The position numbers and the translations under genes are program-made. Under the pieces are notes generated by a model that made no database searches, was not told the origin of the DNA, and was given only the letters and a program-made list of their open reading frames with translations. Positions 3-6,486 of a stretch of DNA of 6,486 nt are shown here, in pieces. Position 1 is the stretch's first letter. The number at the start of each line of letters is the position of its first letter. Source of the stretch: Synergistota bacterium (lineage in GTDB: Bacteria; Synergistota; JAGHAJ01); assembly GCA_021161545.1 (NCBI GenBank), contig JAGHAJ010000025.1:1-6486 (forward strand), given 5' to 3'.

Positions 3-695
3 GGCTCTTTTAAGGATATGCTTAATAGGATAGTTTTGTTCGTTGTCAACGTGATGGGATGGTTTTATACATTGAGTATAGGTTCATGGTTAGGAGTAGG
101 TGTTGGTATACTGTTTGCTGTGTTTATGAAGCCTAAGAAGAGAATGATACTTGCTTTCATTATTGCTGTTGTTGGAATTAGCCTTCTTGCGAGTCCCTCT
201 GCGAATCAGAGATTTCATACTTTTTGGAGGATGTTAAAGGGTGAAATAAACCCTATAGACATGGAGCGGGTGTATGCTTGGCAAAGTATTGTGAGGATGC
301 TGAAAGATAGACCCGTTTTTGGAGTAGGAGTGGAAAACTTTGATATAGCGTATCCGCAATACAAGATGCCGAAAGCTCATCTTTACATGTTGGAGGCACA
401 TAACCTTTATCTTCATTTAGCTGCATGCACAGGCTGGATTGGCTTAGGAATATTTCTGGTATTGTGGGTATGGATATTCAGAGACGGCGTCTTGCTCTTC
501 AATAGAACGCGGGATAGCGATATTAAGCGGTGGACCCTGGGGTTGCTAATGATGTGGGTGGTGATAAATGTGCATGGTATGGTAACATACAGTTTTTATG
601 ACAGGCAGGTTGCAACTCTTATATGGAGCTTCCTTGCACTTTTAGAAGTTCTTGGAGAGGTTGATAGGGGTGATAAAAAGGCACGGATGGGGTAG
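3..695 (+). CDS. O-antigen ligase / polymerase (Wzy_C family), C-terminal part, partial at 5' end
   Basis: Inner-membrane glycosyltransferase-like protein of the WaaL/Wzy type, which joins undecaprenyl-linked O-antigen to lipid A-core or polymerises O units on the periplasmic side. The frame is open to the left edge, so the ATG at 18 is probably internal. Family members are usually around 400 residues or more and only about 230 are seen here. Counting from the ATG at 18, hydrophobic segments lie at about 5-36, 42-58, 138-155, 172-190 and 198-212. Between the second and third is the long periplasmic loop with family motifs: RVYAWQSIVRMLKDRPVFGV (84-103) and EAHNLYLHLAACTGW (126-140), the latter holding the conserved His128. 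The Arg usual in the SRG motif of the upstream helix is Ile21 (LSIGSW). Ligase and polymerase cannot be separated from this fragment. It ends 4 bases before the ATG at 700, so it is likely in one operon with the next gene. Confidence 0.85.
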   Translation, partial: GSFKDMLNRIVLFVVNVMGWFYTLSIGSWLGVGVGILFAVFMKPKKRMILAFIIAVVGISLLASPSANQRFHTFWRMLKGEINPIDMERVYAWQSIVRMLKDRPVFGVGVENFDIAYPQYKMPKAHLYMLEAHNLYLHLAACTGWIGLGIFLVLWVWIFRDGVLLFNRTRDSDIKRWTLGLLMMWVVINVHGMVTYSFYDRQVATLIWSFLALLEVLGEVDRGDKKARMG

Positions 696-699
696 TAAG

Positions 700-841
700 A
701 TGTAGTGTCTTTTGCGGGGTCTTTGTCTGGTTATTCCTGTTTGCAAGAGTATTATGTGCTCAGCCCTCCTCTATAGACCTTGGTTCGTTTTTTCCACCTG
801 TCGGTAGTCAGGGTAACCAAGAAAGTTCTGTTGGATGGGCT
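700..841 (+). other. Signal peptide and N-terminal coding stretch of the papain-like gene, lacking an in-frame start codon
   Basis: Reading the frame of the 842-2962 ORF upstream gives an open stretch from 677 (after TAA at 674-676) with no ATG, GTG or TTG. From 698 it encodes a textbook signal peptide: R, then a hydrophobic core around VFCGVFVWLFLFARV, then a likely cleavage site LCA|QPSS. This runs straight into PPVGSQGNQESSVGWAV, the active-site helix of C1A peptidases. This stretch is therefore real coding sequence. The best start is the ATG at 700, preceded by GGGG at 689-692 with a 7-base spacer. That ATG is followed at once by TAG (703-705), and omitting the single T at 703 would join ATG to AGT GTC TTT in the correct frame, giving about 753 residues. 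Explanations are a sequencing indel, a genuine frameshift mutation, or non-standard initiation. The sequence alone cannot decide. Confidence 0.75.
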
Positions 842-2962
842 GTGGGTTACTATGCTATGGGGTTTTATGAGAAGAAATTATATGGATGGGATAACTCTTT
901 GCCTGAAAGGCAATTTAGTCCTGCATTTATCTACAACCAGCTGAGTGGAGGTGTAATGGACAAAGGTGGGAGAATAGAAGATGCGCTTAAACTTGTGACC
1001 CAAGAAGGATGCGCTGTTATGTCTGTTATGCCATATAAGGAAGACGATTGCTCAGCTTTGCCTTCTATTGAGCAGTATATAAATGCGATGTTTTATAGGG
1101 TGGATCAGTATGTGCAGATTTTTCCTCGAGGTGTGTCTCATCCTCTTAGCGATGCAGTTGTGAATACCATAAAGGGCATACTTGCTGGAGGGGATGTTGT
1201 AATAGTGGAGATACCAGTGTTTAACAGCTTTAGGTATCCCAGTAAGTCAGCATGGGATTACAGAAATGGTAAACCATATTTTTACAATCCCAAAGGTGGT
1301 GGTGCGCTTTCATATCAAGTTATTTGTATAATGGGGTATGATGATGACATTGGGGGCTTTTTGATAAGAAACTCTTGGGGCACAGATTGGGCAACGGATG
1401 GGGATGCTTATATATCCTATGATTTCTTCAAAGAGTATGCGCTTGAGGCTTGGAGAATTGTTGCCTTTTCAAATCACAATGTTGAAGATTATATAACATT
1501 TAGGGTTGATTGCCCTCGCAGGAGAAGTATAAGTGTGTGGTTTGGCAATGAAATTGGTAGAGAAAGGCAGATTTTTGGATATCTATCTGCAGATGCAACC
1601 GATGGTAGAAGTGGTATAGAGATGGCTGTTGATGTTACAGATGACCTGAAGGACTCTCCGAGCACTAAAAGGTGGTACTTGAGAGTTCTTAATAACTCAG
1701 GTGATGGAACAGATGCTACAATAGATCGTTTTTCTTTGCATGTAAATAGTGATGAATATCACTCTCTTGATGTTCCCGCGTCTATTCCAGATGATAGTGA
1801 AAAGAAGGTTTATGTGGAGTTACCGGAAGAGTGGAATATTTACATTGATTCTTCTTGTTATGAGGGAGTAGCTCCTTTAAAGGTTGATTTGGCAGTGTGT
1901 GGTAATTATGATGAGAATGAAGTGTCCAGTTATTTGTGGGATTTTGATGGTGATGGCAAAGTTGATACTGTTACTGAGACACCTTCTGTGACCTGGACAT
2001 ACAGGAATAAGGGTAGGTATTGTCCTTGCGTGATTCTCACTCTATTGTCAGGTGAGACAGAGGAAGCTACTTGTAGAAAGGAGATAGTAGTAGAAGCTGA
2101 GAGTGGTGGGGATGCAAAACCCCATAAGCCGTCAATTGTATATCCACTTTCGGGCACTTTAGTTTCTTGGGACACTGAGGTGAAATCGTCTTGCTTTTCT
2201 TCAGATTGCAATACTACCCATAAGATGTCCCATTGGATATTTGAAGTAAATGGGGTAAGGGTTTTTGACAGGTTAGTGAAATGCAGGGCTTTTCTTGAAT
2301 CCTTACCACTTGTATTTGTGGGAATAAAACCTTTGGATAGATGTGATGTGAGAGTAAGATACCTTGATGATAGGAATAACTGGTCTCATTGGTCTGATGT
2401 AGTGGGTTTTTCGATTGCGGATTTTGAGGATTTTGATAGAGATGGTGTACCTGATTCTTGCGAGTACAGGGGATATGTGGATCTTAATAGAAATGGGGTT
2501 GATGATAGAAGTGAAGGATATAAGATTGTAACCCTGGATGGAGGTCCTGTTGGTATTAGAGCAAAAAGGGGTTGTATTGATGCAGTATATGTTAAAGATG
2601 TAAGTGATGTTTCTCTGCTTTTGATGGTTGTATCTAACATTGAAGGTGATAGGGCAAGTATAACTTTCCTGACTTCTTCTCAAATAGGGATTGTTGACCC
2701 TTTCGAAGAAGTCGTTCAGAGCAAATCTGTCAGGGCAGTGGGTAGTTTTGAAATTCTGGATGGAGGTATGTATGATGTAGATGGAGCAAAAAATGGAAGA
2801 ATTGTAGTATGTCTAAAGACATTAGGAAAGGGGCTTGCTGTTAGCGGAGGAGGTTGCAGTATATGTCCAGCGAATATTGATATTGGTATACCCCTTTTAA
2901 TAGGTGTGGTATTGCTTTCTTATGCTGTAAGAAGATTGTTACGGACTGTTAGAAAGGAGTAG
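842..2962 (+). CDS. Surface-anchored papain-like (C1A) pseudo-peptidase with P-like, PKD, FN3-like and calcium-loop domains and CTERM-type tail
   Basis: Exported multidomain protein. The GTG at 842 is only the first standard start codon in frame; it falls inside the papain active-site helix, so the true N-terminus is upstream (see 700-841). Residues counted from 842: papain-like domain to about 210, with the Asn motif RNSWGTDW at 176-183 (N177) and GYDD at 165-168. A beta-sandwich at about 215-318 ends in SLDVPASIPD and resembles the P/Homo-B-like domain that follows bacterial C1 peptidases. A PKD domain (about 332-418) has YLWDFDGDG at 364-372. An FN3/Ig-like domain (about 427-526) has VRYLDDRNNWSHWSD. 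Two DxDxDG-type loops lie at 530-538 and 547-555, and a further beta-rich region at 556-665. The tail is SGGGC (C672), one membrane helix and a basic end. Expected catalytic residues are changed: Cys to Ser (827-829) and His to Gln (Q159), while the oxyanion Gln (809-811) and Asn are kept. Peptidase activity is therefore unlikely; an adhesive or binding role is inferred. It probably shares the ligase transcript. Confidence 0.85.
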   Translation: MGYYAMGFYEKKLYGWDNSLPERQFSPAFIYNQLSGGVMDKGGRIEDALKLVTQEGCAVMSVMPYKEDDCSALPSIEQYINAMFYRVDQYVQIFPRGVSHPLSDAVVNTIKGILAGGDVVIVEIPVFNSFRYPSKSAWDYRNGKPYFYNPKGGGALSYQVICIMGYDDDIGGFLIRNSWGTDWATDGDAYISYDFFKEYALEAWRIVAFSNHNVEDYITFRVDCPRRRSISVWFGNEIGRERQIFGYLSADATDGRSGIEMAVDVTDDLKDSPSTKRWYLRVLNNSGDGTDATIDRFSLHVNSDEYHSLDVPASIPDDSEKKVYVELPEEWNIYIDSSCYEGVAPLKVDLAVCGNYDENEVSSYLWDFDGDGKVDTVTETPSVTWTYRNKGRYCPCVILTLLSGETEEATCRKEIVVEAESGGDAKPHKPSIVYPLSGTLVSWDTEVKSSCFSSDCNTTHKMSHWIFEVNGVRVFDRLVKCRAFLESLPLVFVGIKPLDRCDVRVRYLDDRNNWSHWSDVVGFSIADFEDFDRDGVPDSCEYRGYVDLNRNGVDDRSEGYKIVTLDGGPVGIRAKRGCIDAVYVKDVSDVSLLLMVVSNIEGDRASITFLTSSQIGIVDPFEEVVQSKSVRAVGSFEILDGGMYDVDGAKNGRIVVCLKTLGKGLAVSGGGCSICPANIDIGIPLLIGVVLLSYAVRRLLRTVRKE
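1835..2095 (+). other. PKD domain within the papain-like surface protein
   Basis: Residues about 332-418 from the GTG at 842. The signature is the SYLWDFDGDGKVD segment followed by TPSVTWTYRNKGRYCPCVIL, matching the WDFGDG...hxYxxxGxYxVxLxV pattern of PKD domains. These are Ig-like extracellular modules associated with surface proteins and with carbohydrate or protein binding. Extra cysteines (C394, C396, C411) could form disulfides, which fits an exported location. Confidence 0.85.
2429..2506 (+). other. Pair of calcium-binding loops (thrombospondin type 3 / EF-hand-like)
   Basis: Two aspartate-rich loops 17 residues apart: DFDRDGVPD (residues 530-538) and DLNRNGVDD (547-555). Both follow the Dx[DN]x[DN]Gxx[D] pattern of TSP3-type and dockerin-like calcium loops. 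They sit between the FN3-like domain and the C-terminal beta-rich region, a usual stalk position in bacterial surface proteins. Calcium binding is inferred from the pattern only. Confidence 0.75.
2843..2962 (+). other. C-terminal Gly-Cys / membrane helix / basic tail sorting signal (CTERM type)
   Basis: The last 39 residues consist of SGGGC (C672 at 2855-2857), a short polar stretch with a second Cys (C675), one hydrophobic helix at about 680-696, and a tail with four Arg and one Lys. This tripartite layout, with an invariant Cys after a Gly run, is that of the MYXO-, JDVT- and Synergist-CTERM tails, which are thought to be processed by dedicated CPBP-type intramembrane proteases. The exact class cannot be assigned by eye. 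At minimum it is a C-terminal membrane anchor. Confidence 0.65.
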
Positions 2963-3049: not shown

Positions 3050-3077
3050 TTGACTTGGGTTTCTTTTAATGTATAAT
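3050..3077 (+). promoter_or_regulatory. Strong sigma70/SigA-type promoter for the transglutaminase-like gene
   Basis: The -35 TTGACT (3050-3055; consensus TTGACA) and -10 TATAAT (3072-3077; perfect) are separated by 16 bases. Transcription would start near 3084, giving a leader of about 34 bases before the ATG at 3118. This is the best promoter match seen in the window and suggests vigorous expression independent of the upstream genes. Confidence 0.8.
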
Positions 3078-3117: not shown

Positions 3118-5133
3118 ATGGGTAGGATTCATAGGGTAGGATGGGTAGTTATATTGTTCTTCCTGTTAATGGTGCAACCTGCCTTCTCTGCTCATTCGGC
3201 GTTTTCGCCTTTGTTAGGACAGGAAGTACTAACCGGTATAGGTAATATCAGTGTTATAAGGGTGAGTATCGATGCAAATATTAATGCGGTAGGTACAGTA
3301 CATACGAAGATGGTATTGAAATTTCCGACTACTTCCGTGTATCTACTTGCTAAAAGGATATATCCGAGCCCGTATGTGATGTTAAGGGACCTTTTGATAC
3401 AGAACGCTGATACTATTGTCAAGAATGCTGATGTTAAGTATAGGGATAGTGATAGATCAATAGTAATGGAGGCAGACATTGTTGGACAGGTGGTGAATAA
3501 GCAAGGGGTATGGGAGTTCTATGTTGGTAAAGATGCGGATCTCATATGGCGTAATAATGAAATAGCTATCTTTGCGATGATAAGCTACTCACGGAGTAAT
3601 GCAGTGGTAAGTTATCTTAAGGTTAGGCTTCCAGATAGGGCTTATGATATATCCTATGACGATACGGATAGGGTATTGACCTATAATATGCCCAGGGAAA
3701 AGGTACCTTCTCAGATAGTAACGAGTGTTCGTACCAAGCTAACAGTAAAGCCCAGAGTAATGTCTGCTACCTATAAGATTTATGGGGACCCTGAGTTTCA
3801 TGATGGTTACTATTGGGTAGCTCGATCAGAAGTCGTTAATACTGGTAATAGTAACATATATAATCTAACTATAAGGTATAAAATGGAAGGGTATTGTAAT
3901 TGGTCAGAGCCTCATACTTACCATGTTGTAGTTCCAGGGGAAACTTTGGTAGATCTTTACTATCCAGTAATACCTTCTAAGGTAACCAAACTCATGACAA
4001 GGACACCTACAATGGTGGAGATGAAGTACACATATAAGGATGAAAAGGGGCAGCTACACACAGGTTACAGACACAAGAGATTGCATATACTTGGCATAAA
4101 CCAGTTTGAGTTTTCCAATATCCCTATAGAGGAACGTACGGGAAGTTGGATGGATAGCTTTTCTAATATGCCTCTACTTGCTGCATGGGTCACACACTTA
4201 GACCCTGTGGTGAAGAAGTTTGCCGGTATGGCATCACAGTTGGCTGGAGGAGTAGTTACATCTTCAAGGAACAAGGATGCTATAAAGTTCTGCAATGCGG
4301 TATACGATTTGATGAGGGGGAACAACATGGTGTATCAGACTCCATCTTCTACATTCCTTACGGAATATGTCCCGGAGCAAGACGTAAAATACCCCCGTGA
4401 TACATTGAGAGATAAAGGTGGTACATGTGTGGACCTCTCTATACTATATGCGGCAACATGTGAGACTGAAGGATTAAGAACTTTGTTAATTTCAATTCCT
4501 GGACATGTCTTTCCCGTTATAATACTCCCTGAGGGAGGAATCCTACCGGTTGAAGTTACAGCTATAAGTGGGGCAGCACTGAATAAACCCTCGGTTAAGT
4601 CGTTTTCTTTTGCTGTTGCTGTTAAGGTTGCACAAAAAGAGATCAGGCGTTTAAGACAGGGGCTTTATTATGTAGTTGATGTTGAGAAGATGTGGCGCGA
4701 AGGAGTTGTGAGTCCTGAGCTACCACCACTGGATTCAGACGTATTGCAGAAATGGGGTTATAAACTTGTGTCTCCCAAGAAGGGAAGGGAGATGAAAGAG
4801 AGCAAAACATCTCCTCGCGCAAATGCTGCTGGTATAACAGGGGTATGGCAAGGTGTGGGTAGAAATACCTCTGGTGGCGCTTCAAGAATAACTATGAAAT
4901 TAAGGCAGGTTGGGAACAATGTTACAGGTAGTTGTATCCTCACTCCTGGTGGTAGTGGGACAGTGAAAGGAATTGTGCAAGGTAGTAGGGTTAAATTAGT
5001 TGCATACTTTATGGGAGTAAATGGCAGTTTCCAGATAGTGTTTGAGGGGACTATAAAAGGAAGAACTATAGTTGGCCGGTGGTATTCACCAGGTTCAAGT
5101 GTTAATGGTACCTTTAGTCTTCAAAGGGGATGA
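3118..5133 (+). CDS. Secreted transglutaminase-like cysteine hydrolase with C-terminal beta-barrel-like domain
   Basis: Exported protein of 671 residues. The signal peptide covers residues 1 to about 25: basic start GRIHR, hydrophobic core, cleavage near AFSA|HS. Residues about 35-205 are beta-rich and unrecognised; about 210-330 look like an Ig-like domain. A transglutaminase-like (papain-superfamily) domain covers about 340-550 with a full triad: Cys437 in GGTCVDLSILYAA, His463 in PGHVFPV, and Glu479 in LPVEVT, where Asp is more usual but Glu is common in this bacterial subgroup. The preceding YPRDTLRDKGG matches the family pattern. Such domains may crosslink, hydrolyse amide bonds or cleave peptides; the substrate is unknown. 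A Lys/Ser-rich linker (about 553-568) leads to a C-terminal domain (about 573-670) starting GVWQGVGR, with repeated Gly-turn strands (VTGSC, VKGIV, FEGTIKG, VGRWYS, VNGTFSLQ) like a small lipocalin-type barrel. No membrane anchor is seen, so periplasmic or secreted. It has its own promoter and a terminator overlapping the stop codon, so is probably monocistronic. Confidence 0.85.
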   Translation: MGRIHRVGWVVILFFLLMVQPAFSAHSAFSPLLGQEVLTGIGNISVIRVSIDANINAVGTVHTKMVLKFPTTSVYLLAKRIYPSPYVMLRDLLIQNADTIVKNADVKYRDSDRSIVMEADIVGQVVNKQGVWEFYVGKDADLIWRNNEIAIFAMISYSRSNAVVSYLKVRLPDRAYDISYDDTDRVLTYNMPREKVPSQIVTSVRTKLTVKPRVMSATYKIYGDPEFHDGYYWVARSEVVNTGNSNIYNLTIRYKMEGYCNWSEPHTYHVVVPGETLVDLYYPVIPSKVTKLMTRTPTMVEMKYTYKDEKGQLHTGYRHKRLHILGINQFEFSNIPIEERTGSWMDSFSNMPLLAAWVTHLDPVVKKFAGMASQLAGGVVTSSRNKDAIKFCNAVYDLMRGNNMVYQTPSSTFLTEYVPEQDVKYPRDTLRDKGGTCVDLSILYAATCETEGLRTLLISIPGHVFPVIILPEGGILPVEVTAISGAALNKPSVKSFSFAVAVKVAQKEIRRLRQGLYYVVDVEKMWREGVVSPELPPLDSDVLQKWGYKLVSPKKGREMKESKTSPRANAAGITGVWQGVGRNTSGGASRITMKLRQVGNNVTGSCILTPGGSGTVKGIVQGSRVKLVAYFMGVNGSFQIVFEGTIKGRTIVGRWYSPGSSVNGTFSLQRG

Positions 5134-5209: not shown

Positions 5210-6486
5210 ATGGATCTTAATAAATATACACTTAAAGCACAGGAAGCAGTTTCAGATGCACAAAAGGAAGCAGTTACAAGACAGCATCAAGCAATAGATG
5301 TGTTTCATCTTGCTCTGGCCTTGGTGCATCAGAGAGATGGTATAGTAAGGAGAACCCTTGAGTCCATGGAGGCGGATGTAGCCTCTTTGGAAGGAGAGCT
5401 GGAACGAAAATTGTCTTCTTTACCTGCGGTTTCGGGAGCCCTCGCAGGTAATTATATTACGCCTGCACTTCAGAATGTCCTCATAAAAGCAGAAGAAATT
5501 GCAAAAGGGATGAAGGATGAGTATGTCAGTACCGAGCATCTCTTTATGTCTTTGTTTGAGGACTCTGGTATTCAGCCTTTTTTCAAGAGAGCGGGGGTAA
5601 CAAGGGATGGCTTTATGAAAGCGCTTGCTAAAATAAGGGGGAGTAAGAGGGTAACAGATGATAGCCCGGAAAGTAAGATGCAAGCTCTGGAGAAATATAG
5701 TACGGATTTAACAGATATGGCAAGGAAGGGAAAGCTTGACCCTGTGATAGGTAGGGATGAGGAAATAAGGAGGGTTATACAAGTTCTTTCTCGGAGGACA
5801 AAGAATAATCCTGTCCTTATAGGTCCTGCTGGCGTGGGGAAGACTGCTATAGTGGAAGGGTTGGCGCAGAGGGTAACTGCTGGAGACTGCCCCGACTCGC
5901 TTAAGGATAAACGCATAGTCTCATTGGATATGGGGGCTCTCCTCGCGGGAGCGAAGTTTAGAGGAGAATTTGAAGAAAGACTTAAAGCCGTAGTCAAAGA
6001 GGTGAAAGAATCTGAAGGTGATGTTATCCTTTTTATAGATGAGATTCATACGCTTGTAGGTGCTGGAGCGGCAGAAGGTGCTATTGATGCGGCTAATATA
6101 TTGAAACCAGCGCTTGCTAGGGGAGAAATTAGATGTATAGGTGCAACTACAGTTAATGAGTATAGAAAGCATATAGAGAAGGACCCTGCACTTGAGAGAA
6201 GGTTTACCCCGGTGTGGGTCAGAGAACCTACCGTTGAGGAAACTATATCGATACTGAGAGGTTTAAAGGAGAGATATGAGATACACCATGGTGTCAGAAT
6301 AAGCGATGATGCCCTTGTTGCTGCTGCTGTGCTTTCTAACAGATATTTGACAGAAAGGTTTTTGCCGGACAAGGCAATAGACCTTGTGGATGAAGCTGCT
6401 TCCAGATTGAAGATGGAGCTTGACAGTATGCCTGTCGAACTCGATGAGCTCCAGAGGAAGATAAGACAGTTAAAGATAGAAAACCA
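5210..6486 (+). CDS. clpB: ATP-dependent chaperone ClpB (Hsp100 disaggregase), partial at 3' end
   Basis: Cytoplasmic AAA+ hexameric disaggregase that, with DnaK/DnaJ/GrpE, threads aggregated proteins through its pore. The first 425 codons are present; full-length ClpB is about 860 residues. The N-terminal Clp repeat domain covers about 1-145 (starts [14 protein letters not shown]; second repeat with [10 protein letters not shown] at 107-116). The linker segment [20 protein letters not shown] (159-178) is typical. D1 has Walker A GPAGVGKT (205-212, K211; the usual form is GEPGVGKT), Walker B VILFIDE (272-278, E278), the pore-loop region around [13 protein letters not shown] (247-259), sensor motif CIGATT (309-314), and arginine finger pair R330/R331 in ALERRF. 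The [12 protein letters not shown] motif (387-398) precedes the coiled-coil middle domain, which begins near 405 and is cut by the window edge. Numbering matches E. coli ClpB within one residue at the Walker motifs. The N-terminus and start of a middle domain favour ClpB over ClpA or ClpC. Confidence 0.95.

Follow-up and report, generated by a model that had tools for sequence, protein, structure and literature searches.

A bacterial papain-fold domain with serine and glutamine in place of its catalytic cysteine and histidine

Papain-family pseudopeptidases are documented mostly in eukaryotes. The locus described here raises the question of whether a bacterial member of this family (C1A) that carries neither the catalytic Cys nor the catalytic His is a maintained protein or a decaying gene. 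The window, i.e., the whole stretch of DNA analyzed (6,486 nucleotides), corresponds to contig 250 from end to end. The draft genome to which it belongs, most likely one of the phylum Synergistota, measures 1.58 Mb in 288 contigs and is 82% complete. On this contig, the end of an O-antigen ligase-like gene is followed by the papain-like gene, a gene for a 671-residue secreted protein, and clpB. The ligase-type gene lies directly upstream of the papain-like gene, with its stop codon at 693-695. Coordinates of all features are given in Table 1.

Table 1. Features of the papain-like gene and its upstream neighbor in the window
Feature	Positions	Strand	Basis
Wzy_C C-terminal part, O-antigen ligase-type membrane protein	3..695	+	PF04932, E 7e-22
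Papain-like protein, complete open frame from stop to stop	677..2962	+	Direct reading
Signal peptide VRCSVFCGVFVWLFLFARVLCA	695..760	+	Inspection of translation
Papain-fold (C1A) domain without catalytic Cys/His, almost no pro-region ahead of it	761..1474	+	AlphaFold2, structure match, PF00112
Oxyanion-hole Gln (papain Gln19 equivalent), CAG, kept	809..811	+	Read directly, alignment
Ser, TCT, replacing the catalytic Cys (Cys25 position)	827..829	+	Read directly, alignment, model
Gln, CAA, replacing the catalytic His (His159 position)	1316..1318	+	Read directly, alignment, model
Triad Asn, AAC in NSWG (Asn175), kept	1370..1372	+	Read directly, alignment
Beta-rich domain, P-domain-like by inspection	1487..1819	+	Model strands 243-353 at high pLDDT; aligned in homologues
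PKD-like domain	1880..2065	+	PF18911/PF00801, E 4e-4, below cut-off
Two calcium-binding-type repeats, DFDRDGVPDSCE and DLNRNGVDDRSEG	2420..2518	+	Inspection of translation
Choice-of-anchor U domain, weak match	2744..2806	+	NF041766, 18.6 bits (cut-off 32)
Sorting-tag-like C-terminus: SGGGC, hydrophobic helix, basic tail	2843..2959	+	Sequence; model helix 706-732; aligned GGGC

The motif that runs from Gln19 to Cys25 in papain reads QGNQESSVGWA here, with the Ser six residues past the oxyanion Gln, and the region of the His reads YQVICIMGYDD, with the Gln six residues ahead of the Gly in GYDD. The initial annotation had described a C1A domain with Cys replaced by Ser and His by Gln, and this was borne out by direct reading, translation, alignment, and a structural model; that the oxyanion Gln and the triad Asn are kept was confirmed by reading and alignment. 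In an alignment with 135 other C1A open frames, S and Q lined up precisely with the columns for Cys and His. A further non-consensus residue is the Glu that replaces the usual Gly two places before the nucleophile, and there are only two His among mature residues 1-240, neither of them at the conserved place. The protein falls outside the definition of an active peptidase, although it is a C1A homologue in fold and sequence; C1A homology with the essential catalytic residues missing makes it a candidate C1A non-peptidase homologue.

An AlphaFold2 model built from an alignment of 36 sequences had pLDDT values mostly >90 over the papain domain and the following beta domain and low confidence in the C-terminal half, and structure searches were informative within model residues 1-238 only. 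The best match among solved structures was xylellain 3ois (3ois_B; Z 27.4, rmsd 1.9, 215 residues, 26% identity), with many cathepsins matching at Z >23. Within this papain fold the two replaced residues occupy the canonical places: mature residue 23 (Ser) opens a long helix spanning 23-41, and residue 186 (Gln) lies in the strand 184-194, where the His belongs. Scores against PF00112 lay on both sides of its cut-off of 20.7 bits (22.5 in the genome search and 19.7 for the protein). Xylellain, a C1A peptidase of Xylella fastidiosa (PDB 3OIS), was the best PDB match by sequence as well, but it has the catalytic Cys and His and lacks the architecture of beta domain, PKD domain, and sorting tag found in the window.

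The beta-rich domain that follows the papain fold is common to the intact homologues, one of which (L074) matched the choice-of-anchor model NF041766 at 37.2 bits, above its cut-off of 32. By inspection and in the model, the C-terminus is tripartite, with SGGGC, a helix (706-732), and the basic end RRLLRTVRKE. The GGGC of this tag was aligned in L003 and L004, and L074 also has a GGGC tag. The Synerg-CTERM model TIGR04564 had no match in the protein or elsewhere in its genome, and the Rfam and PADLOC searches returned no match.

How unusual the double replacement is was gauged with two surveys, one of 136 C1A open frames (including the window) from Synergistota and named genomes and the other of 81 C1A domains from viral contigs, both gathered with patterns or profiles that do not demand Cys or His. 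Taking both together, Cys was present in 212 of the 213 readable other rows and His in all 215. Within the first survey, Gln and Asn were found in all readable rows, Cys in 132/133 of the others, and His in 134/134; the domains contributed by the viral-contig scan were all intact apart from one row truncated ahead of the Cys motif. Set against ca. 216 further C1A domains of bacteria and viral contigs, the window is thus alone in having lost both residues, a comparison in which loci picked as best Pfam hits may lean toward intact proteins. A plasmid scan found distant C1 peptidases only. The single row without Cys (L010, G068:C103) is a C1A frame beginning immediately ahead of the Cys motif, with Glu in the Cys column; it looks broken or frame-shifted. 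A single in-frame stop inside the C1A match was seen in three other places (L176 of G267, G021:C4:25256-25972, and G108:C9:206812-207522).

The nearest homologues are L074 (a Desulfurobacteriaceae MAG), L175 of the same phylum, and L003, L004, L047, and L048 of Synergistota, which are 35 to 47% identical and similar in architecture, and all six keep Cys and His. The catalytic domain is 45 to 47% identical to the intact Aquificota homologues, compared with 44% between the intact L003 and L074, while the domain after it reaches only 22 to 26% identity to homologues. No relative >47% identical in the domain was found in ca. 320 whole genomes or in the scan of named genomes; a single-protein scan of the latter gave no relative, and an alignment scan found some. 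The phylogenetic tree grouped the window, L003, L074/L175, and three other homologues with a support of 81/90 and with the inner order unresolved, and the end branch of the window (0.89) is no longer than that of the intact L003 (0.94). L074, L175, and L003 share with the window the papain domain (38 to 47% identity), the beta domain, PKD repeats, and a Cys-containing C-terminal tag, but differ from it in their intact Cys and His and in having a pro-region; L074 and L175 also have two to three PKD repeats, unlike the window. By eye, ca. 35 to 75 residues separate the signal peptide from the domain in intact homologues and only a few do so here, as would be expected if there were no activity needing restraint.

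The in-frame stop that precedes the papain-like gene is at 674-676, and from there up to 842 the frame contains no ATG, GTG, or TTG, although a clear signal peptide is encoded from ca. 695 onward. The initial annotation had placed the catalytic motif inside a 706-codon open reading frame, which does not hold, since that frame opens at GTG 842, downstream of the Gln/Ser motif. We rejected 842 as the start of the protein: it would cut off the signal peptide along with the conserved stretch PPVGSQG and the beginning of the central helix. Homologues of the protein also begin with signal peptides. The lack of a canonical codon before 842 makes a start lesion, an assembly error, or recent decay possible; the simplest reading is that the start region carries a lesion or a minor error, and the missing codon might mark the onset of decay. 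A gene caller run automatically would begin the ORF at 842, so that the altered motif would escape notice.

With the start set aside, the papain fold looks maintained. Of 12 columns conserved at 98% or more, only the two catalytic ones are changed (1 in 66 for a random pick of two), and of 34 positions in the trimmed row of the window at which the six intact homologues all agree, 27 are kept, the seven changed ones including Cys and His. The coding character of the gene is retained, with a synonymous codon score of z +1.5 (codon use based on 20 contigs, 122 kb) and a GC3 of 0.31 versus a GC1,2 of 0.45. In the papain domain, the similarity of the window to intact proteins equals that among the intact ones and exceeds that of the adjacent domain. 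Most of these measures would be normal also if selection had stopped very recently, so the heaviest weight falls on a neutral decay calculation for the frame of 755 codons without a stop. It gave a probability of ca. 1e-3 (1e-4 with indels) that both residues were lost given that the frame is still open, assuming no selection for inactivation, e.g., of a harmful protease. At 35 to 47% identity the nearest homologues are saturated for a dN/dS comparison. The Ser/Gln state is known from one contig of one draft genome and may be a strain-specific lesion, an alternative that the initial annotation had named. Taken together, the measures favor maintenance over decay. The initial annotation had leaned the same way, and its dyad loss in an intact papain fold stands by alignment, survey, and model, but it overlooked that a start codon is lacking, and no other observation speaks as strongly for decay or a sequence error.

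The gene might be a recent pseudogene whose history began with the loss or a frame-shift of the start; selection would then have ceased, and chance would have removed the catalytic residues before a stop codon arose. This is the kind of history that a frame without a canonical start before 842, known from a single genome and with intact homologues, would suggest, and we regard it as unlikely but deserving serious weight: the stop-free 755 codons cap neutral divergence at ca. 3% or less, which makes the loss of precisely Cys and His improbable (ca. 1e-3), and the other near-invariant columns are kept, the coding character is normal, and the branch is not accelerated. Far less credible is an error of sequence or assembly as the source of either the substitutions or the missing start, or of the two together. 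The assembly is a draft metagenome, the start region contains short homopolymers, and the contig end overlaps another contig; but two independent base errors would be needed on exactly the two catalytic codons, and the neighboring genes are intact, with a ClpB 64% identical to that of relatives. An error at the catalytic codons is much less believable than one confined to the start region.

Silicateins carry Ser at the position of the nucleophile and retain the histidine. As proposed for them and for other Ser-type papain-like proteins, the product could still be an enzyme that works through the Ser or another residue with a different chemistry. The oxyanion Gln and the Asn are kept, and Cys-to-Ser papain-like enzymes can retain some activity, with several Ser-type families in existence (PMC10318531). 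In the classification of papain-like families, however, Ser-type members retain both remaining residues of the active site (PMC10318531), and the His of silicatein and its Ser-type counterparts is Gln in the window. No general base is apparent, and we judge continued catalysis improbable. A silicatein-like arrangement in the strict sense, with a Ser nucleophile and a retained His, is ruled out by this Gln.

Our best reading, which we consider more likely than not, is that the gene is maintained and encodes a non-catalytic bacterial member of the C1A (papain) family, a secreted pseudopeptidase with a C-terminal tag that would bind a ligand and leave it uncut. If expressed, the protein would be exported by its signal peptide and held at the cell envelope by its Cys-containing C-terminal tag. 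Myxosortase, a CPBP protease, processes C-terminal tags containing Cys (PMC11980579). The genome encodes one CPBP protease, for which the best models, Mrt_core and MrtS, scored ca. 53 bits, below their cut-offs of 100 and 130, and this single CPBP/Rce1-like protease would probably process the tag. The papain fold would then be displayed with both lobes and the cleft kept. Lacking both the nucleophilic thiol and the histidine that pairs with it, the domain should form no acyl-enzyme, and we propose that the cleft would instead bind and hold a peptide or protein ligand, the protein acting as an adhesin, a receptor, or a substrate or inhibitor decoy. In the flatworm Trichobilharzia, for comparison, cystatin is bound by a cathepsin B paralogue that is inactive (PMC7054455).

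The nearest parallel in terms of residues comes from the scabies mite, whose inactivated cysteine protease paralogues SMIPP-Ca and SMIPP-Cb have Cys replaced by Ser and His by Gln and are thought to be non-catalytic, yet are expressed (PMC5956821). The Ser/Gln pair in the C1A domain is identical, but these are eukaryotic, multicopy gut proteins with no sorting tag and an origin independent of the protein in the window. The kind is thus already known, and the protein described here adds a bacterial member to it, so far a single one. Among bacteria, pseudo-orthocaspases are cysteine-peptidase homologues in which both His and Cys are replaced, by Tyr and Ser (PMC6426788). They resemble our case in the loss of both catalytic residues, but have a caspase fold (another clan) and a different pair and, unlike the window, are conserved across many genomes. 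A broader scenario, which we put forward tentatively, is that a bacterial lineage converted a surface-sorted papain-family peptidase to a surface protein dedicated to ligand binding, that nucleophile, general base, and pro-region were lost together, and that the Ser/Gln pair was reached independently of the scabies-mite pseudoproteases. If true, a bacterial pseudopeptidase borne by a modular, anchored surface protein would make it possible to ask cleanly what a protease fold does when it no longer cuts, and its intact sisters from other phyla would provide natural controls.

The secreted protein encoded downstream (3118-5133) contains a transglutaminase-like stretch (residues 344-472) in which the motifs GGTCVDLS and PGHVFPVI are kept. 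It had no match in Pfam or the PDB, it matched part of the antiphage ProA model at 48 bits (cut-off 1500), and stretches similar to it occur inside proteins of ca. 2000 residues in other Synergistota. Just upstream of its gene is a promoter-like TTGACT-16-TATAAT (3050-3077, 11/12), suggesting that it may be transcribed separately from the papain-like gene. At the other end of the contig, the end of clpB (6362-6484) overlaps a second contig of the same assembly (G000:C177:5084-5206; 41 residues, 100%), which appears to be an assembly break, not a second gene.
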